Origin: Acidimicrobiales bacterium
GTDB lineage: Bacteria; Actinomycetota; Acidimicrobiia; Acidimicrobiales; Iamiaceae
NCBI GenBank assembly: GCA_030447445.1
Contig: JAUJOW010000008.1
Location: 1 to 64,000 of the forward strand
Direction of reading: 5' to 3'
Length of the DNA stretch: 64,000 bases
In this document: positions 1,726 through 37,773 of the stretch, one piece after another
Numbering within the stretch: the stretch's first letter is position 1
How the letters are laid out: each line of letters begins with the position of its first letter
The notes under the pieces: model-generated
What the model saw: only the letters and a program-made list of their open reading frames with translations
Told to the model about the DNA's origin: nothing
Databases searched by the model: none
Made by a program: the position numbers and the translations under genes

Positions 1726-1899
1726 GGTTCCTCCGAAGCGAGGCGGGCCGCATGGAGGGGAAGTGGCTGCACGGGAGGTTACTCTCGTGCACTTTCATGT
1801 AGTATCGATGAGCCGCGGTGAGACTGTCAAGGACATTATCGGGTGCAGTACCGTGACCGAGGCCATCGGACCGGCGGGTCCCTCCCCCAGGAGCCGTGC

Positions 1900-3024
1900 A
1901 TGCGCAGTCCCCACGCCCGCCGCACGCTCTTCCTGGCCGTGGTCGCCGTCGTCGTGCTGGTGCTGGGCAGCGCCGCCCCGGCCGGCGCCTTCATCCCCGA
2001 CGACGTGCGCTACGAGCAGGTGCTCGGGTCCTACGAACCGCTCAGCGGCGACTTCAACGGCGACGGTCTCGGTGACATCGTCTGGTACGCCGCCGGCACG
2101 GCCAGCGACTGGCTGTGGCTCGGCCACGAAGCCGGCTGGGAGCAGCGCACCAACCGTCCCCTGACCATCTCGGGGACCTACCGCCCGGTCGTGGGGGAGT
2201 TCACCGGTGACGGCATCGACGACATCCTGTTCCACCGCCCCGGACCCGGCGGCTCGGACTACTTCTGGCCCTCCCGGGGCGACGGCCGGTTCGGCTCGGT
2301 GGCCGTGGCCAACGCCAACGAAGGCACCCCGCACGTCGGCCGGTTCAACGGCGACGAGCGCGACGACATCTTCTGGTACCGCCCAGGATCTGGCTTCGAC
2401 TCCATCTGGGTAGCCACCCACGACGAGGGCTTCCTCGAGACGCCGACCCCGGTGTTCGGCACCTACACCCCCGCCGTCGGGGATTACGACGGCAACGGCT
2501 TCGACGACATCCTCTGGAGCGATGAAGCCAGCGCCACCGACCCGCTGTGGTTCTCGACGGGCACCGCCGGGCCCGACTGCGGGGGCTGCTTCACCCGGAC
2601 CAGCGTGTCCTTCCTGGGGCGGGGCAGCGTCCCGGTGGCCGGGAACTTCAACGGCGACGACAAGACCGATGTCTTCTGGTACGGCGCTGGTGGCGGGGCC
2701 GACGGCCTCTGGCTGGCCACCGGCGACGGCTTCGATCTCGAGCCCTACTCGGTGGTGGGCTCGTACCGGCCGATCGTCCGGGAGGCGCTGAGCCAGGACG
2801 AGATCGTCTGGTACGGGGAGTCCTGGCCGGAGACGATGTGGCACTACGTCGACGGGCGGTTCGTCAGCGAGGAGTTCCCCCAGGTCGCGGCCGGTCGCAT
2901 CCCGATCGTCGGCGTCCACCGCGGCCCGTTCCAGGATGAGGACGTCTTCTTCGCCGGCCCCGGCGACCGGATCGACGCCCAGACCTACGTGTCGGACCAA
3001 CCGGGACGACGGTCGCGCCGATGA
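1900..3024 (+). CDS. Secreted FG-GAP/VCBS repeat protein
   Basis: The 374-residue protein has a clear signal peptide: basic N-terminus (RSPHARR), hydrophobic core of valine and leucine, and a cleavage site near PAGAF at about residue 27. Six or more repeats follow, each with a calcium-loop-like core such as DFNGDGLGD, EFTGDGIDD, RFNGDERDD and NFNGDDKTD followed by a [IV][FVL]WY strand, spaced by about 45 residues. These are the blades of a beta-propeller of the FG-GAP/VCBS type. Such proteins act outside the cell, often in adhesion or carbohydrate contact. An ATG exists 57 bases upstream, but GGAG seven bases before 1900 and the signal peptide support this start. The next gene starts five bases after the stop codon and is also secreted, so the two probably form one unit. 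Confidence 0.85.
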   Translation: MRSPHARRTLFLAVVAVVVLVLGSAAPAGAFIPDDVRYEQVLGSYEPLSGDFNGDGLGDIVWYAAGTASDWLWLGHEAGWEQRTNRPLTISGTYRPVVGEFTGDGIDDILFHRPGPGGSDYFWPSRGDGRFGSVAVANANEGTPHVGRFNGDERDDIFWYRPGSGFDSIWVATHDEGFLETPTPVFGTYTPAVGDYDGNGFDDILWSDEASATDPLWFSTGTAGPDCGGCFTRTSVSFLGRGSVPVAGNFNGDDKTDVFWYGAGGGADGLWLATGDGFDLEPYSVVGSYRPIVREALSQDEIVWYGESWPETMWHYVDGRFVSEEFPQVAAGRIPIVGVHRGPFQDEDVFFAGPGDRIDAQTYVSDQPGRRSRR

Positions 3025-3028
3025 TCGC

Positions 3029-4033
3029 GTGAGCGACGCCGGCGTGGCTCGTACCCGAGCGGCCTCGGCCATCCTCGTCGTCGTGGCGGTCGTCGCCGCG
3101 CTCTTCGGCCCCCTCCCTGCGGCAGGCGGGCCGACGCGAGCGGTCAAGCCGGCCGTGCCCGCCTCGGGTGCCCTCTTCGGGGTGTGGGACCAGCCCCAAG
3201 CGGGGAACGACCATCGAGCCGGGATCCAGCGCCAGTGGCGTGCCCTCGTCGACGACCTCGGCCGCCCGCCGGACATCGCCCACTCCTTCTACAAGTTCTC
3301 CGACCCGTTCCCTTCATGGCGGGAGCCGTGGTACCAGTACCACGGTTCGGTCCCGATGATCTCATGGGCCGGCGCCGTCTCCGCAGACGTGCTGGCGGGG
3401 CGCCACGACACCCTGATCCGGCAGCGGGCCCGGGCGGTCCGGGAACTGGGTGCGCCGCTGTTCCTCCGCTACTCCGCCGAGCCGGAGGCGACGAAGCACC
3501 TTTCTCGCTCCCAATCGCCTGAGGCCTACAAGGTCGCCTGGCGCCGGGTGCACCGCCTCTTCGCCGAGGAAGGCGTGACCAACGTCGCCTGGGTGTGGTG
3601 CCCGACGGCGTTCGGCTTCGAAGACGGTCGGGCGCCGGCGTACTACCCCGGCAACGACGTGGTCGACTGGGTGTGCGCCGACGGGTACAACTGGGGCCCA
3701 GCCAAGGGAGCTCCGTGGCGCGACTTCGCCACGATCTTCGAGAGCTTCCACGCCTTCGGCGTCGCCGTGGGCAAGCCGCTCATGGTGGGCGAGTACGGGA
3801 CGGTCGAGAGGGGACCCGGCGACAAGGCCGAGTGGTTCGCCACGGCCACGGAGCAGATCAAGCGCCTGCCGGCCATAAAGGCCGTCGTCTACTACAACTC
3901 GAATCGCTTCGAGGACGACCGGATGTGGCGGTGGCGGATCACGAGCAGTCCATCGGCCCGGACGGCGTTCGAGGCCATGGCCTCGGACCCCTACTTCCAT
4001 CGACGGCAGCGCTCGTCGACCACCCGCTTCTGA
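3029..4033 (+). CDS. Secreted GH26-like glycoside hydrolase
   Basis: The 334-residue protein has a hydrophobic signal segment (SAILVVVAVVAALFG) ending near residue 35. The mature part resembles the (beta/alpha)8 barrel of GH26-type endo-mannanases and related lichenase/xylanase proteins. It shows GVWDQPQ at the first strand, FLRYSAEPE, where a glutamate sits in the place of the general acid, WVWCPT, DWVCADGYNW, and GEYGT with the candidate nucleophile glutamate. The start is the GTG at 3029, five bases after the preceding stop codon. The gene faces the exopolysaccharide operon tail to tail, with six bases between stop codons. A plausible role is to trim or release the polysaccharide made by that operon, but the substrate cannot be read from sequence. 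Confidence 0.8.
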   Translation: MSDAGVARTRAASAILVVVAVVAALFGPLPAAGGPTRAVKPAVPASGALFGVWDQPQAGNDHRAGIQRQWRALVDDLGRPPDIAHSFYKFSDPFPSWREPWYQYHGSVPMISWAGAVSADVLAGRHDTLIRQRARAVRELGAPLFLRYSAEPEATKHLSRSQSPEAYKVAWRRVHRLFAEEGVTNVAWVWCPTAFGFEDGRAPAYYPGNDVVDWVCADGYNWGPAKGAPWRDFATIFESFHAFGVAVGKPLMVGEYGTVERGPGDKAEWFATATEQIKRLPAIKAVVYYNSNRFEDDRMWRWRITSSPSARTAFEAMASDPYFHRRQRSSTTRF

Positions 4034-4039
4034 GCAACA

Positions 4040-5605
4040 TCAGCGCCTGGGGGTCACCTCGCGGTAGGAGTGGTAGCGCTTCGACTGCGACGGGCCTCGG
4101 TTGACGACGACGCCGAGCAACCTGGAACCGACCCTGGCCAGCTGCTGCTGGGTTTCGACCACCTCTGCTTCGGTGGTATGGGCGATCGAGACCACCAGCA
4201 CCATGGCCTCGGCGACAGTGGCCAGCCCGTGGGTGTCGGCCACGGCGAGCACGGGGGGCGCATCGAGCAGCACCAGGTCGAAGCGCTTGCGTAGCTGGCG
4301 CAGCACGTCGGCCATGGCATCGGACTGGAGGAGGTCGCTCGGGTTGCGGAACTTGGCTCCATCGATCGGCCCCGCCATGAGAACCGACAGACCGCCGCCT
4401 ATATCCCGCAGGGCCTTGTCGAGCCGAAGGTTGCCCTGGAGCACATCGGTCAGACCCTCGGTGCCGTTCAGGCCGAAGATCCGGTCGAGAGTGGGGCGAC
4501 GGATGTCGGCCGACACGAGGGCCACTGAGTGGCCACCCTGCGCCAGGACGGTGGCCAGGTTCGCCGAGACCGTGGACTTGCCTTCGTCCCGGTTGGCGCT
4601 GGTGAAGCACACGACCTGGGTGTCGGCGTCGGTGACGGCGATGAGGAACGAGGCGCGGAGTCGTCGGAAGGCATCAGCTTCGGAGCTGTCGGGATCCTGG
4701 AGGGTGACCAGGCTGTTCTCGGCCTTGCGATACCCCTCGGCGAAGGTGGGCACCGTTCCCAAGGTGGTTACACCGAGGTGGTGCTCGATCGACCCCTTGT
4801 CCCGCACCTGAGCGTCGAGGCGGTCGGCCACGAAGGCGACACCGAGGGCGAGGATGCCACCGCCCAGCAGTCCCAGGGCCCCGGTGCGCACCGGTCCGGG
4901 CGTCGACGGGCTGCCGGGCAGGTTGGCCGGGGTCAGCACAAGGCCGGGATCCACCTCGGTCTGCTCGACCGTCCGCAGCTCGAGGCGGGCATCGGCGAGT
5001 TGCGCATCGAGGGAATCGACACGCCGGTTGGCGGCCGCCCATTGGGCCGGCTCCTCGTCGGGGTTGATCAGGGCCAGGGCCTGCTCGGCGTCCTGAAGCT
5101 GGTCGCTCGTGTCTTCGATGACCCGCTGCTGGGCTGCCACCCGTTGTTCGATCTTGCCGACCACCTCGGCCCGGTTGACCTCGACGTAGGCCTCGGCGAA
5201 GGCCTGGGCGCCGGCCTGGGCCCGGCGCGGGGTGTCGCCGGTGAACTCCACCTGGAGGATGCGGGCCTCCGACGGAGCCGTGACCTCCACGCGAGCCAGC
5301 AGCGCCCGCGGGGAGACGTCGAAGTCGAGCTGCTCGGCGGCTCGCTCGGCCACCACCTCGGACTCCATCACCCGCGCCTCGGTCAACACATCGCTGGCCG
5401 CCAGGCGAGGCGCCCCTTCGGTGACCTCGGAGTCAGGGATCTGCACCTCGCTCCGGGCCGTCCAGCGCTCGGGCCGGGTCACCCCGTAGGCGACGCCGAG
5501 GAGGGTGCAGACGACGACGATGGTGAACACGAGCGCCTTGCGCCGCCGGATCACCCCGAGGTAGTCGGCGAGGTCCACGCTCGTGGCGTTGGGTTCAGCG
5601 CTCAC
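4040..5605 (-). CDS. Wzz-BY-kinase fusion (polysaccharide co-polymerase with tyrosine kinase domain)
   Basis: The 521-residue protein begins with a chain-length determinant (Wzz) domain: cytoplasmic SVDLADYLGVIRRRK, a membrane helix at about 24-42, a long extracytoplasmic helical region, and a second helix at about 241-262. The C-terminal part is a CpsD/CapB-like bacterial tyrosine kinase with Walker A TSANRDEGKST (about 335-345), Walker A' SADIRRP and Walker B LLDAPPVLA. Such proteins set chain length and drive Wzy-dependent polymer export at the inner membrane. The C-terminal tail has only two tyrosines (RYHSY), fewer than the usual cluster. The GTG at 5605 is preferred, with AGGAGG upstream at a rather long 11-base spacing; an ATG at 5677 is possible. 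It is the last gene of the operon running from 12019 to 4040. Confidence 0.9.
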   Translation of the reverse strand: MSAEPNATSVDLADYLGVIRRRKALVFTIVVVCTLLGVAYGVTRPERWTARSEVQIPDSEVTEGAPRLAASDVLTEARVMESEVVAERAAEQLDFDVSPRALLARVEVTAPSEARILQVEFTGDTPRRAQAGAQAFAEAYVEVNRAEVVGKIEQRVAAQQRVIEDTSDQLQDAEQALALINPDEEPAQWAAANRRVDSLDAQLADARLELRTVEQTEVDPGLVLTPANLPGSPSTPGPVRTGALGLLGGGILALGVAFVADRLDAQVRDKGSIEHHLGVTTLGTVPTFAEGYRKAENSLVTLQDPDSSEADAFRRLRASFLIAVTDADTQVVCFTSANRDEGKSTVSANLATVLAQGGHSVALVSADIRRPTLDRIFGLNGTEGLTDVLQGNLRLDKALRDIGGGLSVLMAGPIDGAKFRNPSDLLQSDAMADVLRQLRKRFDLVLLDAPPVLAVADTHGLATVAEAMVLVVSIAHTTEAEVVETQQQLARVGSRLLGVVVNRGPSQSKRYHSYREVTPRR

Positions 5606-5732
5606 CCGAGCTCGGGCCTCCTGTGGCGGGGACGTCGGCGCCCAGCGGGCACGGTCGTCGGAACAGCTCCGTTCCATTCTGCCCGGCCGGCGACCGATGG
5701 CGGGGATGGCAGCGCAGCGAGGCAGGGCCGGG

Positions 5733-7394
5733 TCACGACGGGGCCGCCGGGCTCGTTCGAGTGCCGCCGGGACGGGGCCGGAGGGCGGTTCGGAACGCCT
5801 CGGGGTGGAGCAGGCGTCGCCCCCGCCACAGGAGCCCGATGTAGAGCGGGGCAGTGATGGCCAGGGTGGCCATCATGGATGGGATCGTCGCTCCAGCGAC
5901 CAGCCGGACCAAGAGCGCCGGGATCCCTACGGCGACGGTGGCCAGCACGGCCACGCGGCGAGCTCCGGCTCCGAAGGGGTGCAGGCCCAGCCCGCGATGG
6001 ACCTGGATGAGCGGTAGGGCGTTGCTAAGGCTGATGCTCGCCGTCCAGGCGATGGCCGCGCCCGTGGCGCCGAAGGGGGGAACGAGGAGGATGTTGCCGA
6101 GCACGTTGACAGCCACGGCCACGGCCGCGTTCAGGAGGTTCGACCGGCTGGCCCCACCCATGAGCAGGACCATGTCCACAGGGCCGCACAGCGACGCGAA
6201 CAGGCCGGCGCCGGCCAGGATGACGAGCACGGTCGCTCCGTCCTCGAAGCCGGGACCGAACGCCCGCATGAGCACCGGCGCGAACGCCGCACTGAGGAAG
6301 TGGATGGGCCACACGAGGCAGACGCCCCAGGCCGTGGCCGACTGGAAGACGAACTGGGCGCGAGGCAGCTGGCGGCGGGCGAGGGCGGCGCTGATCTGGG
6401 GCTGGACGGCGTGGTTGACGGCCAGAGCCACGAACATGCCGACGATCAGCCAGCGGCTGGCGGCGGCGTAGACGCCGGCGGCCAGCGATGAGGCCAACGC
6501 GCCGACCATGAGGATGTCGAGGCGGAGCACGGCGACCTGGAACACCCCCGCGAGCGCGCGAGGGGCGGCGAAGCCCCAGAAGGCCCGTCCGCTCACCTGG
6601 TCGCCGGCGAGGCCGTCGCTGCCATCCCCGTCAAAGCCGCCCGCAAGTGGACCAGTGGGTGTGCCCGACACGGCCAACCGCTCACTCCGGCGGACCAGCA
6701 CGGCGTACCAGACCGCCATCGCAGCGGCGGCCAGGACGTAGGGCACGGCCCATGCCGCCGCCATCGCCAGCGGGCCGAGGCCGAGTACGAGCACGACCAG
6801 CACGGCGATGGGCTGGGCGATCGGGCGAGCGACCCGCTCGACGAGCACCGATGGCAGCATCGTCCCGAAACCGCGAGAGCCGGCCTGCAGCACCCCGTAC
6901 ACGGCGGTCACCGCCATGGCGGGGGCGAACACCCGCACCGACGTGGCGAAGTCGTCAGCGTGAGGGCCGTTCGCCACCAACGAGGCCAGGGTGTTGGCCC
7001 CGAGGAAGAGGATGAGCCCGGCCACCACGCCAATGCCAGCGGGGGGGAGGATGGCCAGCCGGCTCCAGCGGCGCAGGGCGTCGATCTGGCCGAAGGCCAG
7101 CGCCCGGGGTACGAAGCGGGCGAGGCCGGTGTCGGCGCCCAGCTGCCCGGCGACGGTCACCATCTGGAAGACGGCGACGGCTTCGAGGAAGGCGCCGGTG
7201 GCGGCCGGTCCGAGGCGACGGGACACCACGACGACGAGAGCGAAGGCGCCCACCGCGCTTACCGCCGACCCGGCGAGGTTCAGCACACCCCCGCGGGCGA
7301 CCGTCGACAGGTCGGGGTCGGCCGAGGTGGCAGCGGCCTCCATCTCTGGTGCCGGGTCGCCGGGCGGCGTCGTCGGGGTCCGGAGCTCGGTCAC
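5733..7394 (-). CDS. Wzx-like polysaccharide flippase (MOP superfamily)
   Basis: The 553-residue integral membrane protein has about 12-14 hydrophobic helices evenly spread from residue 45 to 530. The pattern is that of Wzx/RfbX-type flippases: a first helix pair starting near GGVLNLAGSAVSAVGA, and GPAATGAFLEA and ASRWLIVG segments. Members move lipid-linked repeat units across the inner membrane. It starts at a GTG that overlaps the stop codon of the upstream kinase-fold gene by four bases (GTGA), so the two are translationally coupled. It lies between the kinase-fold gene and the Wzz/tyrosine kinase, which fits export of a Wzy-dependent exopolysaccharide. Confidence 0.88.
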   Translation of the reverse strand: MTELRTPTTPPGDPAPEMEAAATSADPDLSTVARGGVLNLAGSAVSAVGAFALVVVVSRRLGPAATGAFLEAVAVFQMVTVAGQLGADTGLARFVPRALAFGQIDALRRWSRLAILPPAGIGVVAGLILFLGANTLASLVANGPHADDFATSVRVFAPAMAVTAVYGVLQAGSRGFGTMLPSVLVERVARPIAQPIAVLVVLVLGLGPLAMAAAWAVPYVLAAAAMAVWYAVLVRRSERLAVSGTPTGPLAGGFDGDGSDGLAGDQVSGRAFWGFAAPRALAGVFQVAVLRLDILMVGALASSLAAGVYAAASRWLIVGMFVALAVNHAVQPQISAALARRQLPRAQFVFQSATAWGVCLVWPIHFLSAAFAPVLMRAFGPGFEDGATVLVILAGAGLFASLCGPVDMVLLMGGASRSNLLNAAVAVAVNVLGNILLVPPFGATGAAIAWTASISLSNALPLIQVHRGLGLHPFGAGARRVAVLATVAVGIPALLVRLVAGATIPSMMATLAITAPLYIGLLWRGRRLLHPEAFRTALRPRPGGTRTSPAAPS

Positions 7395-8593
7395 GACTCC
7401 GTCGTCAGGGTTCGCTGCTCGAGGGCTCGGAGGATGGCTGCGTGACGGCTCCCGAGGGTGGATTGGCCTTCGATATTGGCCTCGTCCCAGCGCAGCCAGC
7501 GCTCCAACAGGTAGCAGCTGACGAGGTCGCTGGCCGCCGACGGGTCGAGCCCGAGTCCGGCGAGGACGGTGGCGACGTGGTCGGTCGCCGCGTCGGCGCT
7601 CGACGGGACATCGCGGCGCGACTCGATGTGGGCGATCTGGAACGACGCGTGTGCGGCGTCGAGCCCGATCGGCACCGGCCAAGAGGCCCGCTCCCAGTCC
7701 CACACCTGCACCCCGGCGGCGGTGCGCCGGGCGTTCCAGGGCGTGTAGTCACCGTGCCAGGCCCCGAACCGCCAGACCACGCCGTCGAGGCGGCCAGCCA
7801 GCCTCTCGAGCACCGTCCGGCTCTCGGTGTGGCCCGAGCTGGCTCGGCCGGCCACTCTTTGCTCGAGGCCCTGCCACCAGGGTGATCCGACGACCGCTTC
7901 GGTGTTGGGTGAGACGAGCCCGGCGATGGCCCCCACGGTGTCGGCGTCGGCGATGCTCCCCGGTACCGTCGGCAGGTCGTCCAGCGGCCGGGTCAGCAAC
8001 ACCGGATGGCCGCGCCAGGTCTCGACGGTGATGGGCTCCGGGGCCAGGATGCCCTCAGCCCGCCGGCGGTGCACCCGGTCGAGCCACGTCGCCTCGTTGC
8101 GGACCAGTCCGTCGGTCAGCGGGTTCCACGCCAGCTTCGCGTAGCCGTGCACGGTGCCGTCGGGGGTGATCATCGAGATCACCGGCTTGCGGTTCGGGCG
8201 GGGAGCGCCGAGGGTGATCCCGATGGCGATGCCGCGGATGCCGAGGAGCTCGCCCAGCCAGGTGGCAAGGGAGGGGTTGCCATCCCGATCGCGGGACGCG
8301 ACGGTGAGTCTTCCACCGACCAGCGGCGTGAGACCGACCCCGACGGCCCAACCCAAGAGCGATCGAGCCATCGCCGGAGCGTGGGCGGTCTGGCGCAGGA
8401 CGCGCTCCCCGGCCCGCCGAGAAGTCAGCGGTACGACCACGCGGGGGTACTTCGAGCTCGGCATGAGCGCGTAGTGCTCGAGAGGTTCGGGGCCGTTCGT
8501 ACCCGCCGGGCCCAGGAGCTGCGCCAGCCACCCCACCGACCCAGCATCGGCGGCGGCGTCATTGCACCGGCGGCCCCGCAACCAGAGGCTCAT
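7391..8593 (-). CDS. Phosphotransferase-fold (APH-like) kinase in the exopolysaccharide operon
   Basis: The 400-residue soluble protein's C-terminal half carries the aminoglycoside-phosphotransferase signature: WHGDYTPWN (the HGDxxxxN catalytic loop), followed by VWDWERAS, which supplies the metal-binding aspartate. The N-terminal half includes YPRVVVPLTSRR and a GYAKLAWNPLT strand that would carry the ATP-contacting lysine. The family phosphorylates small hydroxylated substrates, including sugars and choline. The ATG overlaps the upstream ligase stop (ATGA) and its own stop overlaps the flippase start (GTGA), so it is embedded in the operon. A role in phosphorylating a glycan precursor is inferred from position only. 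A long open frame extends upstream to 9793 but overlaps the ligase gene and is not used. Confidence 0.75.
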   Translation of the reverse strand: MSLWLRGRRCNDAAADAGSVGWLAQLLGPAGTNGPEPLEHYALMPSSKYPRVVVPLTSRRAGERVLRQTAHAPAMARSLLGWAVGVGLTPLVGGRLTVASRDRDGNPSLATWLGELLGIRGIAIGITLGAPRPNRKPVISMITPDGTVHGYAKLAWNPLTDGLVRNEATWLDRVHRRRAEGILAPEPITVETWRGHPVLLTRPLDDLPTVPGSIADADTVGAIAGLVSPNTEAVVGSPWWQGLEQRVAGRASSGHTESRTVLERLAGRLDGVVWRFGAWHGDYTPWNARRTAAGVQVWDWERASWPVPIGLDAAHASFQIAHIESRRDVPSSADAATDHVATVLAGLGLDPSAASDLVSCYLLERWLRWDEANIEGQSTLGSRHAAILRALEQRTLTTES

Positions 8594-9909
8594 GGCGCGA
8601 CGGCGAGCAACGGATGGGCCTCCGAGCCGTCCCCCTGAGGGCGCTGGGCCTCCCGGAGGGCGACGCCGACGACGAGGAAGAGGATGTGGTGCGGGGCGGC
8701 GGTCAGCTCGTACACGAACATCTGCACCAGGACGATGGCCAGCAGCAGGTGGGCCACGGCCACCGACTCCGGGAGCCGTCTCGTCGACCGCAGGAGGGAG
8801 ATGAGGAAGGCCACGTACAGCACCAGCCCGACCATCCCCTGGGAGACCATGACCAACCAGAACTGGCCCTGAGTGCCGACGGCGGGGACGATCCGGGTTC
8901 CGAGCTGCTCCTGAGGGGCGCCGTAGCCGACCAGCGGCGACTTCGCGGTGAGCTCGACGGCCTCGTTGTACAGCCTCAGTCGCCCCGTGTTGCTGTGCTG
9001 GTTCTCCTGGCGGTCGGCGGCGATGTTCCCCAGCGGGGTGAACAGCAGGACGACGGCGAGGGGCACGGCCATGGCGGCGAGCGCCCGACGGCCACGACGG
9101 CCGAGCCGGCCCGGCCGGGTGGAGGCGTAGACGAGGGCCACGCCGAGGCCAAGGAAGAGACCGCGGTTCAACGAGACGATGGCGGGGACGAGCGACGCCA
9201 CCAGCAACAGGGGAGGGCCCATCTGGTACCGGCGACCGTTGATCTGGTTCCAACCGAGGATCATCACGGCGGTGAGCAGGGCATAGGCCGAGCCCCAGTG
9301 GTTCGTGTACACGAACGGCGCCTTGGGGCGGCCGAGGGGGTAGCCGAGGAAGTCGTGGACCTGCGCGAACGAAGGGTGGACCAGGTCGTAGAGGAACGGC
9401 TCGGCTCCGATTGGCCCTGGAAAGACCAGCTCGACGGCGCTCGTGAACCCTCCGCTGGGGATCAGCACCCCGAGCCAGCCGCCGGCCACCGTGGTGAGCC
9501 ACAGGGCGGCACACAGCGACCACACCCGCCGGAGCGGCAGGAGGTCCCGGGGAGCGTTGTAGACGAAGACGAACACCACGGTGGCGGCCACGTAGAGCGA
9601 CAACCGGTAGCCGAAGGCGGCGAGCTGGGTGGGCTCGGCCAGGCTCACCGCCGAGAAGGCCACCCATCCGAGGAACAGGAACCAGATCCCCGTGCCGCGA
9701 GGCACCTTGAGCCGGCGCCGGTCGACGACGAGGTGAGCGGCGAGCGGCACGGCCATGATCTGCCAGGCGAACGACTGGAGGCCGAGGACCCACCAGACCG
9801 GGAAGCCGAAGAACAGGAGGTCGAGCGGCCAGCCGTAGCGAAGGCGGCGGCTCTGGTGGGCGGCCCTGGGGGTAACGGCGGTCGCCGGAGGCAGTGCCAC
9901 CGAGGTCAC
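8590..9909 (-). CDS. O-antigen ligase/polymerase-like membrane protein (Wzy-like)
   Basis: The 439-residue protein has about ten transmembrane helices and one large periplasmic loop, the layout of the O-antigen ligase/Wzy superfamily. Useful landmarks are VSLNRGLFLGLG after a helix, then NTGRLRLYNEAVEL and SPLVGYGAP, which match the R...G.G pattern of this family. Acting in the inner membrane, it would polymerise or transfer lipid-linked repeat units. The start chosen is the GTG at 9909, with AGAAGGGGG about ten bases upstream; another GTG lies nine bases downstream. It follows a sulfotransferase by 31 bases and overlaps the next gene by four. Confidence 0.8.
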   Translation of the reverse strand: MTSVALPPATAVTPRAAHQSRRLRYGWPLDLLFFGFPVWWVLGLQSFAWQIMAVPLAAHLVVDRRRLKVPRGTGIWFLFLGWVAFSAVSLAEPTQLAAFGYRLSLYVAATVVFVFVYNAPRDLLPLRRVWSLCAALWLTTVAGGWLGVLIPSGGFTSAVELVFPGPIGAEPFLYDLVHPSFAQVHDFLGYPLGRPKAPFVYTNHWGSAYALLTAVMILGWNQINGRRYQMGPPLLLVASLVPAIVSLNRGLFLGLGVALVYASTRPGRLGRRGRRALAAMAVPLAVVLLFTPLGNIAADRQENQHSNTGRLRLYNEAVELTAKSPLVGYGAPQEQLGTRIVPAVGTQGQFWLVMVSQGMVGLVLYVAFLISLLRSTRRLPESVAVAHLLLAIVLVQMFVYELTAAPHHILFLVVGVALREAQRPQGDGSEAHPLLAVAP

Positions 9910-9940
9910 CGCCGCCTGCCCCCTTCTCCGAGCAACACGA

Positions 9941-10993
9941 TCATCTCTCCTCCCGGCGGAGGTAGCCATAGGCGGCCAGCAGGGGAGCGGTGAGAGCAGT
10001 GACCGCTCGCTGCGATCTCGTCGGCAGGTGCTCCCGCCACGCGGTGTCGGCTCGAAGCTCAAGCCGCCCAGAGTCGAACCGCATGGGGTTGCCGCCGACC
10101 GAGTGCCCGGCCCCCAGCTCGACCCAGCCGTTGCCGAGGAAGGGGTAGCGGCGATCGAGGCCGAGGGCGGCGTCGTCGAGGATCCGGTCGAGCTCGGTCC
10201 GTGGGTCGGCCACCAACCGTTCGTAGAAGACCCGTGTGACGGGCACGCCTGTGAGGACGGGGTGGGCGTGGAAGGCGGTGTTCCAGCCGACCCAACTGAG
10301 CGCGGAGCGTCCCGGCCGGAACCGGTGCATGAGGTGGGTGTCGTTCTGCTCCAGCTTCTTGTCGACCTGCTTGGTCCACGAGTAGGCGGCCCCACGCGGA
10401 TCCCGGACGAGGTGGACCATGTGGAGCCGCACTCCCGGGATACCGGCCAGGAGGAAGGCGGTGGACACCTGCTTGGAGGAGTCGATCACCACACTCGCGC
10501 CGGAGACGTCGGCGACCCCGCGGTAGAGGCGGGCGAGCAGCCGGCGGTACCGTTCGATGTCCGGCTGGGCCCGGTGGAACCACGCCGGTCGGAGCAGCCG
10601 GGGGATGTAGCGGGTCCGGTCGACGTCCTGCTGGAGGCGGCGGTGGGTGGCGGCGTCGATGTCCGCCGGGGCGTAGGCGTCGGCGAGGACGGCCGACCAG
10701 AACGGGCACTCGTGGAACCGCTCGCCACAGCCACAGCGCTCGTGCTCGACGAGGGTGCGCTGGGTCAGGCGTACCAGCTCGCCGACCGCCATCGTGCCGG
10801 GCACCGACCCGAGCATCCGGTCGAGCAACGTGCTCCCGCTGCGCCCGAGGCCACCGATGTAGAGGACGGTGATCTCACTCCCATACGGGTCGACGCGAGC
10901 GCGGCCGGCCCCGTGTTGGGACCGGTCGGGATGGCGTTCGGTTCCCATGCGCAGCACCATGCCTCCCGATCCGTCTGGCCTCAAGGCGGTCAC
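9941..10993 (-). CDS. Sulfotransferase family protein (exopolysaccharide locus)
   Basis: The 350-residue soluble protein has a PAPS 5'-phosphosulfate loop, GLGRSGSTLLDRML, near residue 48, and a 3'-phosphate region around HLVRDPRGAAYSW (about 193-205). A cysteine pair (CGCGERFHEC) typical of a sulfotransferase subgroup lies between them. The enzyme would move sulfate from PAPS to a hydroxyl group of a glycan or small metabolite. The GTG at 10993 has GAGGAC upstream; internal ATGs at 10960 and 10948 are alternatives because the first 35 residues look unstructured. It sits between a second sulfotransferase and the polymerase gene, which points to sulfation of the exopolysaccharide or its precursor. 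Confidence 0.82.
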   Translation of the reverse strand: MTALRPDGSGGMVLRMGTERHPDRSQHGAGRARVDPYGSEITVLYIGGLGRSGSTLLDRMLGSVPGTMAVGELVRLTQRTLVEHERCGCGERFHECPFWSAVLADAYAPADIDAATHRRLQQDVDRTRYIPRLLRPAWFHRAQPDIERYRRLLARLYRGVADVSGASVVIDSSKQVSTAFLLAGIPGVRLHMVHLVRDPRGAAYSWTKQVDKKLEQNDTHLMHRFRPGRSALSWVGWNTAFHAHPVLTGVPVTRVFYERLVADPRTELDRILDDAALGLDRRYPFLGNGWVELGAGHSVGGNPMRFDSGRLELRADTAWREHLPTRSQRAVTALTAPLLAAYGYLRREER

Positions 10994-11146
10994 CCTGCGT
11001 CCTCGTCGACATCGAACGGCTCTTGGTGTATCTCGGCCTCCGAGCCCGAACTTGGAGCGTCACCGCCCGAGCCGCAGGCGCGACCCAGACCGCTCCCTCG
11101 GATCAGCAAGGAAGGAAACCGGCGGGACGAGAACGATGGTCGCCGG

Positions 11147-12019
11147 TCATCGGAGCCACGGTGGGCGCTCGGGCAGGTGGTCGACGAGCCACTGGTCGGA
11201 TTCGGCGAACGCGTCGGTCAGGCGCTGGCGGAGCGGTGCGGGGATGTCGGAGGTCGCCTGCTCGTTCCATCGCCGGGACGATGCCGGCGGCCCCGGCGGC
11301 ACGTCCAGGAACCGGTGGATGCGTGCGAGCGCCGTCTCGGGATCGCGCTCGAGGTCGGCGGTGTAGAGGACGAGGACCTGCTCCGGCGGGAAGGCGCCCC
11401 ACCAACGTCGGATCTGCGCGTCGTACTGGCCCCGGGCCACGTAGCCGTGGTGCTGGTGGGAGAAGTGGCGGCCGTCGGAGCGCTGGAGCACCTCCTCGGC
11501 GCCGTTCAGCCGGTCCGCCTCGACGTCGAGCGCCGCCTCGAAGGAGAGATCCTCATACCCCCGCCGCCGCTCGTGGTGGTAGGCCGACCAGGCCCGCTCG
11601 ACGGGATCTCGCAGGATGGCCACCAGCCGTGCCTCTGGCATCACCTTCCGGACACGGTCGGGGACCGCGGGGTGGAACAGGTAGTAGGGACAGGCCTCGC
11701 CGACCTTGAGCCGGTACCCGAGACGGGCCGAAGACCGCTGGCGCACGACGTCGAGGGGGAAGTTCGATCGGTACCATCGCGGCGAGCGGTGGTAGGCCAC
11801 GTCGAACCAGTGGACGCCCTTGGTGCGCCGGGGGAAGGCCACCCCGTCGTGGGCGACGAGGTGGCGGTACAGGGAGGTGGTCCCGCAGCGCTGGCCGCCG
11901 ACGAGCAGGAAGTCGGGCAGCGAGCGCGCCGTCGCCGTCGGCAGCGCCGCCCACTGCCCCACCCGGAGCGCGGCCTTGAAGAAGCGGAACCGCGTCGCCC
12001 CGGTGGTGACTGAGGTCAC
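11147..12019 (-). CDS. Sulfotransferase domain protein (heparan-sulfotransferase-like)
   Basis: The 290-residue protein has the classic sulfotransferase fold markers: a PAPS loop GGQRCGTTSLYRHL near residue 41, KGVHWFD, and the 3'-phosphate site AILRDPVERAWSAYHH near 135. A C-terminal WNEQATSDIP segment and a WLVDHLP end are also seen. The length matches the Sulfotransfer_1 family acting on saccharides. It heads the minus-strand operon: TACCGT lies seven bases before the GTG with no Shine-Dalgarno, suggesting a leaderless mRNA. A gap of 153 bases separates it from the second sulfotransferase, so a further promoter there is possible. Confidence 0.85.
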   Translation of the reverse strand: MTSVTTGATRFRFFKAALRVGQWAALPTATARSLPDFLLVGGQRCGTTSLYRHLVAHDGVAFPRRTKGVHWFDVAYHRSPRWYRSNFPLDVVRQRSSARLGYRLKVGEACPYYLFHPAVPDRVRKVMPEARLVAILRDPVERAWSAYHHERRRGYEDLSFEAALDVEADRLNGAEEVLQRSDGRHFSHQHHGYVARGQYDAQIRRWWGAFPPEQVLVLYTADLERDPETALARIHRFLDVPPGPPASSRRWNEQATSDIPAPLRQRLTDAFAESDQWLVDHLPERPPWLR

Positions 12020-32504: not shown

Positions 32505-34055
32505 GTGGCGGCTCTCCCTCCCGCGGTGCCGGCGCGCTCGTCTCGATCACGGCGGACCTGGCCCCAGCGGACGCTCATCACGCTCAACATCGTCTGCATC
32601 GTCGGGGCGCTCGTGCTGGCCGGCGTGCTGGGCTACGGCACCTCCAAGCTCGACGACGTCAAGCGCCTCCGCCTCGACCACGTGCTCCGCGCGGGGGACG
32701 GACCCAGCGAGGATGCACCGCTGGCCGACGGGGCACCGCAGAACTACCTCCTGGTCGGCGCCGACGACGCCACCGGCCTCGATCCCGACGACCCCGTGGC
32801 CGCCGGCCGTCCCGGAGGCGTGCGCTCCGACACGATCATGCTCTTGCGGGTGGACCCCCGGTCCGAGACTGCCCACCTCGTGTCCCTGCCGAGGGATCTG
32901 TGGGTCGACATCGCCGGCAGCGAGTCGAAGGACAAGATCAACGCCGCCATCAACACCGGTGGGGCGGCCACGCTCATCTCGACCATCGAGGCGAACTTCG
33001 GCATCCCCATCCACCACTACGTCCAGGTCAACTTCGCCGGCTTCCGGGAGCTGGTGGAAGCGGTCGACGGGGTGCCGATCTACTTCCCCGAGCCCGTGCG
33101 GGACCGCAAGTCGGGGCTCCTCATCGAAACCCCCGGTTGCAAGGTCCTCGACCCCGTGCAGGCCCTGGCCTTCGTCCGGGCCCGCACCTACGAACTGCGT
33201 CGCGGGGGGGAGTGGGTGGGGGATCCCGCCCTGCCCGACATCGGCCGGACCAGCCGCCAGCAGTACTTCATCCAGAAGGCCATCGAGCGGGCCATCGCCA
33301 AGGGCGTCCGCAACCCCACCAAGCTGGGCCAGCTCGTGGACCTCGGGCTCGAGACGGTCACCCTCGACGACGACCTCCGGGCCCAGGACCTCATCGACCT
33401 CGGCCGCCGGTTCCGGAACTTCAACCCGAAGACCCTGGTGCGCATGTCGCTCCCCGTCGTCGCCGATGTGAAGGGCGGCGCCGACGTGGTGCTGCTCGAG
33501 GAGGAGGAGGCCGAGCCCATCCTCGCCGTGTTCAGGGGCGACGAGCGGGACCCGGCCAGCGTCCCCACCGTCAGCCCCGAAGAGGTGGCGGTGCGGGTCG
33601 AGAACGGTTCGGGGGCCGAGAACCAGGCCACCGAGGTCACCGCTGGCCTCGCCGACATGGGCTTCGCCACCGGAGATCCCACCGATGCCGAAGACTTTGA
33701 GGGCGCCCGCACCACCGTCCGCTACGCCCCCGGGTCCCTGGGCAAGGCCCGTCTCGTGGCGCGCCACGTCGCCGCCCCGGTGACCTTCGAGGAGGTGCCG
33801 GAGCTGGCCGGCAGCGGCACCGACGTGGTGCTCGTGACCGCCCCCAACTTCACCCGCCTGCTCGTCGCCCCCAAGCCCGACAGCCAGCTCGACCCCCCTC
33901 CCACCACGAGCACCACGAGCACGACCGCTCCCACCGATGGCGACGGCGATGGGCCGGGCGGCAGCACCACCGAGCCCGGTGAGGAGGGCGACGGCCCGAC
34001 CACCACCGAGACCGGCGAGGTGCCGGGGGCTCCGCCGCCGGGCGTGGACTGCTGA
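32505..34055 (+). CDS. LytR-CpsA-Psr family cell-wall glycopolymer ligase
   Basis: The 516-residue protein has a short basic N-terminus and one membrane helix (NIVCIVGALVLAGVLGY, about 28-45). The LCP domain (about 75-260) has LLVGADD, RSDTIMLLRVDP and SLPRDLWVDI, with the arginines that bind the polyprenyl pyrophosphate, and QYFIQKAIERA. A LytR_C domain (about 365-450) and a Thr/Pro/Gly-rich disordered tail follow. LCP enzymes transfer glycopolymers from lipid carriers to peptidoglycan on the outer face of the membrane. It is followed after four bases by rmlA and the other rhamnose genes, as expected for a wall-polysaccharide operon. Confidence 0.9.
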   Translation: MAALPPAVPARSSRSRRTWPQRTLITLNIVCIVGALVLAGVLGYGTSKLDDVKRLRLDHVLRAGDGPSEDAPLADGAPQNYLLVGADDATGLDPDDPVAAGRPGGVRSDTIMLLRVDPRSETAHLVSLPRDLWVDIAGSESKDKINAAINTGGAATLISTIEANFGIPIHHYVQVNFAGFRELVEAVDGVPIYFPEPVRDRKSGLLIETPGCKVLDPVQALAFVRARTYELRRGGEWVGDPALPDIGRTSRQQYFIQKAIERAIAKGVRNPTKLGQLVDLGLETVTLDDDLRAQDLIDLGRRFRNFNPKTLVRMSLPVVADVKGGADVVLLEEEEAEPILAVFRGDERDPASVPTVSPEEVAVRVENGSGAENQATEVTAGLADMGFATGDPTDAEDFEGARTTVRYAPGSLGKARLVARHVAAPVTFEEVPELAGSGTDVVLVTAPNFTRLLVAPKPDSQLDPPPTTSTTSTTAPTDGDGDGPGGSTTEPGEEGDGPTTTETGEVPGAPPPGVDC

Positions 34056-34059
34056 GCGC

Positions 34060-35172
34060 ATGAAGGGGCTCGTGCTGGCCGGCGGCTCGGGCAGCCGGCT
34101 GCGACCCATCACCCACACCGGCGCCAAGCAGCTCGTCCCGGTGGCCAACAAGCCGATCCTGTTCCACGGGCTCGAGCAACTGGCCGAAGCCGGCGTCACC
34201 GAGCTCGGCATCGTCGTCGGCGACACCGCCGCCGAGATAGAAGCGGCGGTGGGCGACGGCGGCCGGTTCGGCCTCGAAGTCACCTACCTCCCCCAGGAAG
34301 CCCCCCTCGGCTTGGCCCACGCCGTGCTCATCGCCCGCGACTTCCTCGGCGACCACGACTTCGTCATGTACCTCGGCGACAACCTCCTCGAGACAGGGCT
34401 GGCCGGCTTCGTGGAGCGATTCGAATCCGAGCGCCTCGCCCACCGCGCCCCCCGCCTGGGCCAGGACGGCAGCCGCTCGCCCAGCGCCCAGATCCTCCTC
34501 GCCCGGGTGCCCGACCCACAGCGCTTCGGGGTCGCCGCCCTCGGCCCCGACGGTGAGGTCCTGCGCCTGGTCGAGAAGCCGTCCCGCCCGCCCTCGGACC
34601 TGGCCCTCGTCGGCGTCTACCTCTTCGACCGCCACGTTCACGAGGCGGTGCGGGCCATCCGCCCGTCGGCTCGGGGCGAGCTCGAGATCACAGACGCCAT
34701 CCAATGGCTCATCGACCACGGCCACCGGGTGCAGCACGAGGTGTTGGAGGGGTGGTGGATCGACACCGGCAAGCTCACCCCGCTGCTCGAGGCCAACCGG
34801 CTCCTCCTCGAGAAGATCGAGCCGGTCACCCTCGGCAAGGTCGACGACGGCTCGCGGGTCGAGGGACGGGTGGTGGTCGGCGCCGGAGCGGAGATCGTCG
34901 ACTCGGTGGTGCGGGGCCCGGCCATGATCGGCGAACGCACCCGGATCGTGGACAGCTATGTCGGGCCGTTCACGGCCATCGGTCCGGACTGCGAGGTCAC
35001 CAGCGCGGGCATCGAGCACTCGATCGTGCTGCACGGCAGCCGCATCGACGGCATCCCCAGGGTGACCGACTCACTCATCGGGCGCCACGTCGTGGCCACC
35101 CGGTCGGCCCGCCGACCTCACGCCATCCGGCTCATGCTCGGCGACCACTGCCAGGTCGACCTCGACCAGTAG
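34060..35172 (+). CDS. rmlA: Glucose-1-phosphate thymidylyltransferase, long form
   Basis: The 370-residue protein has the nucleotidyltransferase signature LVLAGGSGSRLRPIT, KQLVPVANKPI, YLGDNLLE (metal site) and EKPSRPPSDLALVGVY. Beyond the ~240-residue catalytic domain there is a left-handed beta-helix tail (about 265-350) with hexapeptide-like repeats (IVDSVVRGPAMIG, VDSYVGPFTAIG), as in StrD/RmlA3-type enzymes. It makes dTDP-glucose from dTTP and glucose-1-phosphate, the first step of dTDP-rhamnose. It starts four bases after the LCP gene. Confidence 0.92.
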   Translation: MKGLVLAGGSGSRLRPITHTGAKQLVPVANKPILFHGLEQLAEAGVTELGIVVGDTAAEIEAAVGDGGRFGLEVTYLPQEAPLGLAHAVLIARDFLGDHDFVMYLGDNLLETGLAGFVERFESERLAHRAPRLGQDGSRSPSAQILLARVPDPQRFGVAALGPDGEVLRLVEKPSRPPSDLALVGVYLFDRHVHEAVRAIRPSARGELEITDAIQWLIDHGHRVQHEVLEGWWIDTGKLTPLLEANRLLLEKIEPVTLGKVDDGSRVEGRVVVGAGAEIVDSVVRGPAMIGERTRIVDSYVGPFTAIGPDCEVTSAGIEHSIVLHGSRIDGIPRVTDSLIGRHVVATRSARRPHAIRLMLGDHCQVDLDQ

Positions 35173-35200
35173 CGGCTCGGTGGGCGAAGCTGGCGCCGTC

Positions 35201-35767
35201 ATGGCCACCGCCACCCCGTCCACCGTCATCGAGGGCGTCATCGTCGTCGAGCCCGACGTCCACGGCGACGAGCGCGGGTGCTTCGTGGAGACCTACCGCC
35301 GGTCGTGGCTCCCCGGCGGCCGGGAGATGGTGCAGGCCAACCGGGCCGACCGCACCGCCGGCTGCGTGGTCGGGCTGCACTTCCACCTCCACCAGGCCGA
35401 CTACTGGTACGTCCCGGCGGGATCGGCCCGGGTGGTGCTGCACGACCTGCGCACCGGCTCGCCCACCGACGGTGCCACCCAGGTCCTCGACCTCGGTGGC
35501 GTCCCGGGCGGTGGCCACGACCATCGAGGCGTCTACATCCCCCCCGGGGTGGCCCACGGCTTCGCCGCCCTCAAGGACCTGACCATCACCTACCTGGTCG
35601 ACGGCTACTACAACCCGGCCGACGAGCTCGGGCTGGCCTGGGACGACCCGGCCGTCGGAGCCGACTGGGGCGTGACCGACCCGGTGCTGTCGGCCCGGGA
35701 CGCCGCCAACCCGAACCGGCCCGACCTCGATCCCGGCCGCCGGCCCCACATCGGTCTGCGGACCTGA
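35201..35767 (+). CDS. rmlC: dTDP-4-dehydrorhamnose 3,5-epimerase-like cupin
   Basis: The 188-residue protein matches RmlC: VVEPDVHGDERGCFVETYRRSW, QANRADRTAGCVVGLHFH, with the catalytic base region at the first conserved histidine, then YVPAGSARVVLHDLRTGSP and YIPPGVAHGFAALKD. The C-terminal part, YNPADELGLAWDDP, is also typical. It epimerises C3 and C5 of the 4-keto sugar. The usual LRGLH core reads VVGLH, so a variant substrate is possible. A GTG at 35180 in frame is an alternative start. The gene sits between rmlA and rmlB. Confidence 0.87.
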   Translation: MATATPSTVIEGVIVVEPDVHGDERGCFVETYRRSWLPGGREMVQANRADRTAGCVVGLHFHLHQADYWYVPAGSARVVLHDLRTGSPTDGATQVLDLGGVPGGGHDHRGVYIPPGVAHGFAALKDLTITYLVDGYYNPADELGLAWDDPAVGADWGVTDPVLSARDAANPNRPDLDPGRRPHIGLRT

Positions 35768-35772
35768 GCAGC

Positions 35773-36780
35773 GTGCGGTTCCTCGTCACCGGCGGCGCCG
35801 GGTTCATCGGTTCGGCGTTCGTGCGCCACCTGGTCGAGACCCGACCCCACGACGACGTGGTGGTGCTCGACCTGCTCACCTACGCCGGCACCCGCACCAA
35901 CCTGGCCAGCGTCGAGGGACGCCACACCTTCGTCACGGGCGACATCGCCGATGTCGAGCTGGTGACGTCGCTGCTGCGCGACCACCGGATCGACGTGGTG
36001 GTCCACTTCGCCGCCGAGTCCCACAACAGCCTGGCCGTGATCGACCCCGGCCGCTTCTTCCGCACCAACGTGCTCGGCACCCAGGGCCTGCTCGAGGCCA
36101 GCCGCCAGGTCGGCGTGGCCCGGTTCCACCACATCTCGACCTGCGAGGTCTACGGAGACCTGGCCCTCGACGCCACCGACCCGTTCGGCGAGCGCTCGCC
36201 CTACCGCCCCCGCACGCCCTACAGCGCGTCGAAGGCGGGGGCGGACCACGCCGTACGCGCCTACGGGGAGACCTTCGGCCTGCCTGTCACCATCACCAAC
36301 TGCGCCAACAACTACGGGCCCCACCAGTTCCCCGAGAAGGTGGTGCCGCTGTTCGCCACCCTCGCCCTCGACGACCGTCCGCTGCCGCTGTACCGGTCGA
36401 GCGACCACCGCCGGGAGTGGATCCACGTGGAGGACCACTGCCGGGCCATCGAGGCCGTGCTCGACCGGGGCCGGGTCGGTGCCACCTACCACGTCGGCAC
36501 CGGCGACGAGCGGAGCATCAACGAGATCGCCGACGCCGTCCTCGCCGCCCTCGGCAAGCCGGCGTCGCTCAAGGCCGTCGTGGACGACCGGCCCGGCCAC
36601 GACCGCCGCTACCTCCTCGACTCGTCCCGCATCCGCTCCGAGCTCGGCTGGCGCCCGACCATCGGGTTCGAGTCGGAGCTGGCCGCCACCGCCACCTGGT
36701 ACGCCGAGCACCGCCCCTGGTGGGAACCCCTGCGGGATCGGGCCCCGGTGACCGAGGCCACCGCCTGGTCCCGCCCGTGA
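35773..36780 (+). CDS. rmlB: dTDP-glucose 4,6-dehydratase
   Basis: The 335-residue extended SDR protein has the NAD-binding GGAGFIGSAFVRHL at the N-terminus, FAAESHNSLAV, STCEVYGD, the catalytic YSASKAGADHAV (YxxxK) and NCANNYGPHQFPEK, all RmlB signatures. It converts dTDP-glucose to the 4-keto-6-deoxy sugar. It starts at a GTG shortly after rmlC. The family's HVDRS reads ESHNS here, a small departure worth noting when naming the exact sugar product. Confidence 0.92.
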   Translation: MRFLVTGGAGFIGSAFVRHLVETRPHDDVVVLDLLTYAGTRTNLASVEGRHTFVTGDIADVELVTSLLRDHRIDVVVHFAAESHNSLAVIDPGRFFRTNVLGTQGLLEASRQVGVARFHHISTCEVYGDLALDATDPFGERSPYRPRTPYSASKAGADHAVRAYGETFGLPVTITNCANNYGPHQFPEKVVPLFATLALDDRPLPLYRSSDHRREWIHVEDHCRAIEAVLDRGRVGATYHVGTGDERSINEIADAVLAALGKPASLKAVVDDRPGHDRRYLLDSSRIRSELGWRPTIGFESELAATATWYAEHRPWWEPLRDRAPVTEATAWSRP

Positions 36781-36802
36781 CCGAGAGCCGCCGGTGAGCC
36801 AG

Positions 36803-36852
36803 CGTTCTCGGGACATGGGGACGGTCATCGCCCTGCCCAAGTCCCGAGAACG
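36803..36852. repeat. Dispersed palindrome, copy C, in the rmlB-rmlD gap
   Basis: CGTTCTCGGGAC (36803-36814) and GTCCCGAGAACG (36841-36852) are perfect 12-bp inverted arms around a 26-base loop. It ends just before the strong Shine-Dalgarno GAGGAGG of rmlD, so a transcript from rmlB would carry it as a hairpin in the rmlD leader. Confidence 0.7.
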
Positions 36853-36867
36853 ACCGAGGAGGCGTCG

Positions 36868-37773
36868 ATGACCGGCCGGCGCGTCGTGCTGGTCACCGGG
36901 GCCGAAGGTCAGCTCGGCCGGGAGCTCGTGGTGGCCTTCACCGGTGCCGGCTGGCGGGTGACCGGAACCGATCGGGCCCACCTCGACGTGACCGATCGCG
37001 ACGCCGTGCTCGGCGCCGTCGGCACCGTGGGCCCCGACACCGTGGTCAACGCGGCGGCGTGGACGGCGGTCGACGACTGCGAGGCCGACGCCGACCGGGC
37101 GTGGAGCACCAACGCGCTGGCCGTCCGCCACCTGGCCGAGGCCTGCGACCGCAACGCCGCCCACCTGTGCCAGATCTCGACCGACTACGTCTTCGACGGG
37201 GACAAGGACGGGCCCTACCTCGAGTGGGACGAGCCGGCCCCCCGCTCGGTGTACGGCCGGTCCAAGCTGGCCGGCGAGCGTGAGGCGGGGGAACGGGCGA
37301 CCGTGGTGCGGACCTCGTGGTTGTGCGGGGCCCAGGGGGACAACGTGGTCCGCACCCTCCTGGGCCTGGCCGCCGACCCCGAGCGAGAGCTGGCCTTCGT
37401 GGACGACCAGCACGGCTGCCCGACCATGGCCGCCGACCTGGCCCCTGTCGTCGTGGCCCTCGTCGCCGACCGGCGCCGGGGGGTCCACCACGTCACCAAC
37501 GCCGGCCCGGTCACGTGGTACGGCTTCGCCCGGGAGGTGCTGGCCCTGGCCGGCCACGACCCCGACCGGGTCTGCCCCATCGCCACCGCCGAGCTCGTGC
37601 CCCCACGCCCGGCTCCGCGGCCGGCCAACTCGGTCCTCGACAACGCCGCACTACGCTTGGCGGGCCTGCCGCCGCTCCGGCACCACGCCGCTGCGCTGGC
37701 CGAGCTCATCACCCAACTGACCGGGCGGCCATCCCCCGCCGTGGACCACGAGCGAGGACGATCGAGTCGATGA
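36868..37773 (+). CDS. rmlD: dTDP-4-dehydrorhamnose reductase
   Basis: The 301-residue SDR protein has VTGAEGQLGRELV at the NADPH site, NAAAWTAVDDCEAD (the RmlD signature), ISTDYVFDG, YGRSKLAGE (catalytic YxxxK) and RTSWLCG. It reduces the last keto group to give dTDP-L-rhamnose. AGGAGG five bases before the ATG is the clearest ribosome binding site of the cluster. The stop overlaps the start of the UDP-glucose dehydrogenase gene by four bases. Confidence 0.93.
   Translation: MTGRRVVLVTGAEGQLGRELVVAFTGAGWRVTGTDRAHLDVTDRDAVLGAVGTVGPDTVVNAAAWTAVDDCEADADRAWSTNALAVRHLAEACDRNAAHLCQISTDYVFDGDKDGPYLEWDEPAPRSVYGRSKLAGEREAGERATVVRTSWLCGAQGDNVVRTLLGLAADPERELAFVDDQHGCPTMAADLAPVVVALVADRRRGVHHVTNAGPVTWYGFAREVLALAGHDPDRVCPIATAELVPPRPAPRPANSVLDNAALRLAGLPPLRHHAAALAELITQLTGRPSPAVDHERGRSSR

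Follow-up and report, generated by a model that had tools for sequence, protein, structure and literature searches.

A split Wzx/Wzy-type gene cluster for a predicted sulfated polysaccharide in an Acidimicrobiales bacterium, and its counterparts among Actinomycetota

At the start of one contig of an Acidimicrobiales genome, two different sulfotransferase genes (ST1 and ST2) lie among genes for the polymerisation and export of a polysaccharide, which raises the question of where such a set would obtain its lipid-linked sugar precursor and its sulfate. The locus occupies positions 3029-12019 of the window, as we call the whole 64,000-nucleotide stretch analysed here, which forms the start of contig C16 (119,545 bp) in a 3.07-Mb metagenome-assembled genome (MAG) of an uncultured bacterium, with 37 contigs and an estimated completeness of 86%. 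A first-pass annotation had described a compact operon in which two sulfotransferases, a Wzy-like protein, a kinase, a Wzx-like flippase and a Wzz/tyrosine-kinase fusion are faced by GH26-like and FG-GAP genes, and this gene set was confirmed by gene prediction and by Pfam and NCBIfam scans, the kinase by structural model and motif. The annotation had also found no glycosyltransferase or initiating transferase, which is true of the interval; the system does have these enzymes, but on another contig, C30, and the window is one half of a split cluster. Judged from sequence, it is likely that the window carries the sulfation, polymerisation and export half of a Wzx/Wzy-dependent cluster for a sulfated surface or extracellular polysaccharide, and C30 the assembly half.

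The sole bacterial sugar transferase (PGT) of the genome sits on C30 and is of the WbaP type (PDB match to WbaP, 3.9e-58), the kind of enzyme that the first pass had proposed to look for. Around it are genes for a beta-propeller protein, Alg14-like and Alg13-like glycosyltransferases, a third sulfotransferase (ST3), a GT2 glycosyltransferase, a second GH26-like enzyme and a DUF4012 protein, and the genome as a whole holds the set of a Wzx/Wzy-dependent pathway: initiating transferase, glycosyltransferases, flippase, polymerase (the window gene being the single Wzy homologue) and co-polymerase. Six relatives from the same family (G014, G015, G016, G017, G018 and G021) have the window and C30 genes in one contiguous cluster, in the order ALG14-ALG13-ST-GT2-WZY-KIN-ST1-WZX-WZC, followed in some by GH26 and DUF4012 genes and then by PGT; the sequence of G017 was covered from ST onward, its ALG14/ALG13 end falling outside the stretch read. 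On C30 the GT2 and GH26 genes are spaced 13 bp apart at the exact site that the WZY-to-WZC block occupies in the relatives. The GT4 genes at 41-45 kb, to which the first pass had looked for the missing enzymes, are unneeded, as Alg14/13, GT2 and PGT are present both in the relatives' cluster and on C30.

Gene trees placed, with 96-100% bootstrap support, the window WZY (100/100), WZX (100/99), WZC (99/98) and KIN (96/96), together with the C30 PGT (97/97), as sisters to the genes of G021, with slightly different branching for ST1. ST2 grouped with the in-cluster gene of G021 and ST3 with genes of G014-G018, and their separate positions imply that two paralogues were kept. The trees are consistent with one cluster that was split after divergence. 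Mirror-tree correlations among cluster genes (0.93-0.97) came from a set that included near-duplicate species and no housekeeping control, and are not used as evidence. In G014 and G016 a flank of the window block, w994 (in G014 Sir2 too), lies about 12-15 kb away from the start of the cluster, with metH and a cobalamin adenosyltransferase-like gene in between; on C30 it is the latter gene that lies nearest to the contig's left end. On the simplest reading, the block was moved to a site between w994 and Sir2, and C16 and C30 are neighbours; the contig ends share no exact overlap, and the adjacency comes from gene order in G014 and G016 only.

The distribution of the cluster was followed with the kinase as bait, without regard to sulfotransferases. 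In an order-level sample of 298 Acidimicrobiales genomes the kinase was found in 37, all of which carry ST1 (E<=1e-40), versus 17 of the 261 genomes without the kinase (Fisher 1.9e-34, kinship ignored). In a named genome collection 449 places encode kinase relatives, and the best 80 of these 449, which overlap with loci of the order search, are dominated by relatives of Actinoplanes (mostly Micromonosporaceae) and extend to Streptosporangiaceae, Geodermatophilaceae, Kineosporia, Glycomyces, Nocardioidaceae, Intrasporangiaceae, Euzebyaceae, Thermoleophilia and Acidimicrobiales. For 52 of these loci (the full-context loci) more than 19 kb of sequence was available; WZY and WZX were present in every one of them and WZC in 48, while ST1 or ST2/3 occurred in 47 and both in 39. 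The co-occurrence of sulfotransferases with wzx/wzy/wzc-like genes that the first pass had suggested looking for is seen in relatives, and by its gene content the same cluster is spread across much of Actinomycetota. Within the source genome four sulfotransferase genes exceed the Pfam cut-off in 3.07 Mb, and since three of the four fall in the two cluster halves, the clustering is more than would be expected by chance. In one genome of family f42 (G064; L085 6762-9854) a single 1030-aa frame encodes both Wzy and the kinase, a fusion that supports a functional link between the two.

These counts also bear on the nature of the Wzy-family protein, whose Pfam family includes ligases as well as polymerases. 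Were it a ligase, the product would be a short sulfated oligosaccharide on a lipid, wall or protein carrier, and the LCP and DUF4012 genes near the cluster in some genomes would fit such an outcome; the Wzz/tyrosine-kinase-type chain-length regulator found in 48 of 52 full-context loci, however, goes with polymerisation, and we consider a ligase quite improbable.

With regard to the sulfate donor, 3'-phosphoadenosine-5'-phosphosulfate (PAPS), the synthesis genes that the first pass had proposed to seek are present: a bona fide adenosine-5'-phosphosulfate (APS) kinase (7.1e-66) is encoded together with cysN and cysD on contig C7, so that PAPS could be supplied by a complete cysD-cysN-cysC operon that does not adjoin the cluster. 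Contig C36 carries a second PAPS_reduct-family gene. In other carriers PAPS genes stand beside the cluster and differ by lineage, being a Sat/APS-kinase fusion in Actinoplanes and cysDNC in some Acidimicrobiales; in family f17 of the latter order, two genomes (G127 and G092) have the full cysD-cysN-cysC beside wzc and a third (G286) has cysD at a contig end. The f17 loci concerned are L086, L090, L125 and L166, and the pattern there is a cysD-cysN-cysC set adjoining the wzc-wzy locus, with the ST1-ST2/3 pair elsewhere in the genome.

ST1 matches a bacterial sulfotransferase of known structure (3rnl, 1.9e-37), and its characterised profile matches are mostly heparan-sulfate sulfotransferases (1e-24). 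Like the heparan-sulfate N- and 3-O-sulfotransferases it carries the PAPS motifs, including RDPxxRAxS, with a 5'-phosphosulfate loop and a 3'-phosphate motif, and its PAPS-site residues are kept in nearly all of 97 cluster homologues. It differs from them at Gly68 (glycine in 90 of the 97, preceded by an invariant Lys67), which is aligned to a glutamate of 3-O-sulfotransferase 3A1 and of 3rnl that we take to be the catalytic base. The kinase gave no match in Pfam and PDB sequence-profile searches. Its AlphaFold model (pLDDT 84) nevertheless identifies a predicted APH-superfamily fold, with Foldseek matches to the superfamily members aminoglycoside 3'-kinase, maltokinase, glucosamine kinase and LicA at TM-scores of only 0.36-0.48 over the query; it shares with these enzymes the motifs HGDxxxxN and D-W-E, which are invariant in 23 homologues, and the metal-binding aspartate is present.

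Several observations count against the proposed reading and have to be weighed with it. Both the split and the neighbouring position of the contigs are drawn from a single MAG that is 86% complete and has no congener; moreover, C16 opens with ~150 bp that look foreign (GC 0.22-0.46 versus 0.71 for the cluster, with an AT-rich, terminator-like start), so that this contig end is likely chimeric. For the source organism and for Actinoplanes missouriensis alike, a sulfated polymer is a prediction. In family f17 wzx/wzy and the sulfotransferases are not linked, an arrangement that the first pass had taken as a contrary sign: four of the five full-context loci without a sulfotransferase correspond by length to contigs of f17 genomes (G127, G092, G230 and G158), although an adjacent ST1-ST2/3 pair is still found elsewhere in all five f17 genomes examined, and L185 is the only full-context locus left for which no sulfotransferase was found. 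Finally, ST1 is a predicted sulfotransferase that lacks the glutamate of the heparan sulfotransferases, which is a lead towards a new mechanism but no proof of one.

The first of these points, together with the number of contigs, would be expected if the separation of the halves were an artefact of assembly or binning and the true genome had one contiguous cluster. This we regard as unlikely, for both halves have a GC of 0.71 and lie within contigs flanked by core genes, and the 13-bp spacing on C30 falls where relatives hold the missing block; an artefact would in any case leave the biology unchanged. The f17 arrangement and the missing glutamate likewise suit a scenario in which a polysaccharide or lipid-linked glycan is made but the sulfotransferases act on a glycolipid, a secreted protein or a metabolite, so that the exported polymer is unsulfated. 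The acceptors of sulfotransferase families are varied, and ST2 is closer to protein-tyrosine and polyketide sulfotransferases than to those that act on glycans. Yet in most lineages the sulfotransferase genes sit among wzy, kinase, wzx and glycosyltransferase genes, the characterised matches of ST1 are mainly glycan enzymes of the heparan-sulfate type, and PAPS genes are neighbours of the wzx/wzy part even in carriers whose sulfotransferases lie elsewhere, and we give this scenario a small chance.

For a sulfated Wzx/Wzy-type polysaccharide, which we continue to prefer, the sequences show which genes are present, their motifs, the recurrence of the set and its contiguous form in relatives, and from these we infer the acceptor, the order of steps, the substrate of the kinase and the sulfation itself. 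The WbaP-type transferase of C30 would put the first sugar-phosphate on undecaprenyl phosphate, and the Alg14/Alg13-like and GT2 enzymes would lengthen the lipid-linked sugar. The cytoplasmic sulfotransferases, two or three in number (ST1, ST2 and the ST3 of C30), would pass on sulfate from the PAPS made by CysD-CysN-CysC, and the APH-fold kinase may phosphorylate a sugar or the repeat unit. Wzx would then flip the unit, Wzy polymerise it and the Wzz/tyrosine-kinase fusion set the length, after which secreted GH26-like enzymes could trim or release the polymer. That the window's GH26-like protein trims its own polymer is plausible from its alignment to 'endoglucanase H' structures (2bv9; phmmer 5.4e-28), in which both acidic positions are kept.

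A cluster of this kind has already been described. The wps-1 cluster of A. missouriensis (wpsA-K, AMIS_7280-7380, with AMIS_7390 adjoining but not counted in), reported in June 2026, encodes a GT2 enzyme (WpsA), two sulfotransferases (WpsB and WpsH), a WecG/TagA-type enzyme (WpsC), a DUF4262 protein (WpsD), a GH26 protein (WpsE), a methyltransferase (WpsF), Wzx (WpsG), a kinase-like protein (WpsI), Wzy (WpsJ) and Wzz (WpsK) (PMC13390465). Squashed sporangia resulted when wpsA, C, G, H, I, J or K was deleted, deletion of wpsB reduced spore release, and loss of AMIS_7390 had a severe effect; sulfation was predicted by the authors without being demonstrated, and AMIS_7390, a Sat/APS-kinase gene, was tied by them to sulfur amino acids (PMC13390465). 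Our Actinoplanes locus L113, whose genes are matched by the profiles of the source genome, runs Sat/APS-kinase fusion, Wzz, Wzy, kinase, ST1, Wzx, methyltransferase, GH26, WecG/TagA glycosyltransferase, ST2-type sulfotransferase and GT2, and is equated by order and domain content with AMIS_7390 plus wpsK to wpsA minus wpsD. The source genome shares with wps-1 two sulfotransferases of different families, Wzx, Wzy and Wzz, and has counterparts of the kinase and GH26 (window) and of GT2 (C30). It differs in that an Alg14/Alg13-like pair replaces WpsC, the WpsF methyltransferase and DUF4262 WpsD are missing, Wzz is fused to a tyrosine kinase, a third sulfotransferase is present, the cluster is split over two contigs and the PAPS genes are on C7. 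The methyltransferase and the WecG/TagA glycosyltransferase, absent from both halves, are variable parts, which many carriers have lost or exchanged for others. The wps-1 report infers for WpsA that the repeat contains galactofuranose (PMC13390465); this was not taken up for the source organism, as no UDP-galactopyranose mutase was found in its incomplete genome.

Other known systems are less close. For synechan (xss) of Synechocystis PCC 6803 (PMC8205485), an exopolysaccharide of the Wzx/Wzy type, the cluster includes a priming transferase and two sulfotransferases from distinct subfamilies, and there sulfate was shown chemically, whereas for the source organism it is predicted; likened here by its description, that cluster is cyanobacterial and plasmid-borne with eight glycosyltransferases, and an APH-fold kinase and GH26 are not named in the parts of the report drawn upon. 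The capsule locus of Vibrio sp. KMM 8419 (PMC11641403) resembles family f17 in having sulfotransferases and cysDNC at a polysaccharide locus, but is an 80-gene Gram-negative cluster with ABC-transporter (Kps) export. According to the wps-1 report, bacterial sulfated polysaccharides had until then been exclusively cyanobacterial and wps-1, from one sporangium-forming species, was a first hint of them in actinomycetes (PMC13390465); for marine Vibrio and Cobetia, too, capsules that carry sulfate are on record. Literature searches on sulfated exopolysaccharide clusters in actinobacteria generally, and on sulfotransferases or exopolysaccharide in Acidimicrobiia, returned nothing relevant. What seems new is the wide distribution, the PAPS linkage and the split architecture.

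The recurrent linkage of PAPS genes to the cluster suggests that AMIS_7390 supplies PAPS to the sulfotransferases rather than serving sulfur amino acids, and the so far unexplained sporangium defect of its mutant would gain a direct reading as a loss of donor supply. Carriers include Thermoleophilia, Euzebyaceae and Acidimicrobiales, and some carrier lineages are not known to form sporangia. A tentative proposal, to which we give slightly less than an even chance, is that a sulfated, possibly phosphorylated Wzx/Wzy-type glycan made by this cluster is a trait of ancient origin found throughout the phylum Actinomycetota (Acidimicrobiia, Nitriliruptoria, Thermoleophilia and Actinomycetes), that its use in Actinoplanes sporangia came later, and that its sulfotransferases form a clade of their own with a non-canonical base. 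The kinase gene can be used as a marker of the cluster, and sulfation becomes testable in cultured carriers.

Table 1. Genes of the locus and its flank in the window (contig C16)
Feature	Position	Strand	Evidence
ST1, PAPS-dependent sulfotransferase (Sulfotransfer_1), WpsH counterpart	11147-12019	-	Pfam E 1.6e-17
ST2, second sulfotransferase (Sulfotransfer_3), WpsB counterpart	9941-10960	-	Pfam 2.1e-13
Wzy-type polymerase (O-antigen ligase/polymerase family), WpsJ counterpart	8590-9909	-	Wzy_C 2.2e-9; hydrophobic segments
APH-fold kinase, WpsI counterpart	7391-8593	-	model and motif; no Pfam match
Wzx-type flippase, WpsG counterpart	5733-7343	-	MatE 1.1e-6; ~11 hydrophobic segments; conserved in cluster
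Wzz/BY-kinase fusion (co-polymerase and tyrosine autokinase), WpsK counterpart	4040-5605	-	Wzz 8.2e-10
Secreted GH26-like glycosidase, WpsE counterpart	3029-4033	+	Pfam GH26 1.4e-7; N-terminal hydrophobic segment
FG-GAP repeat protein	1843-3024	+	FG-GAP_3 2.1e-14

The Wzz fusion also exceeds the cut-off for the TIGR01007 tyrosine autokinase (139.7 bits, cut-off 108). Of the several 4-bp overlaps noted in the first pass, the one between Wzy and the kinase (8590-8593) holds with the preferred starts and that between the kinase and Wzx only if Wzx begins at GTG 7394, the remaining junctions being gaps of 31-186 bp. The FG-GAP gene lies just outside the interval that holds the rest of the set; its product is probably secreted, it was not found conserved with the cluster in relatives, and its membership of the cluster is uncertain. 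A pectate-lyase-like open reading frame (139-882) is truncated near the start of C16. Further along the window (32526-39995) an LCP ligase gene precedes dTDP-rhamnose genes of the rml type and genes for a UDP-sugar dehydrogenase and an epimerase; this ordinary sugar-nucleotide block may be a source of precursors.

Further along C30 there is a third GH26-like frame (L011 1043-2020), after an aminopeptidase-like gene. Beta-propeller-like proteins recur beside the cluster (L010 10122-11906; L048-L052; L124, L148 and L177), DUF5122-like in the source genome, and in genus g2 one of up to ~1220 aa adjoins ST1. The fourth sulfotransferase of the genome is on contig C14 (L012, 5360-6400), between two GT2 proteins of ~1000 aa and beside a MurJ/MviN-like gene (L012 2371-9521), a region that is possibly a second sulfated-glycan locus.

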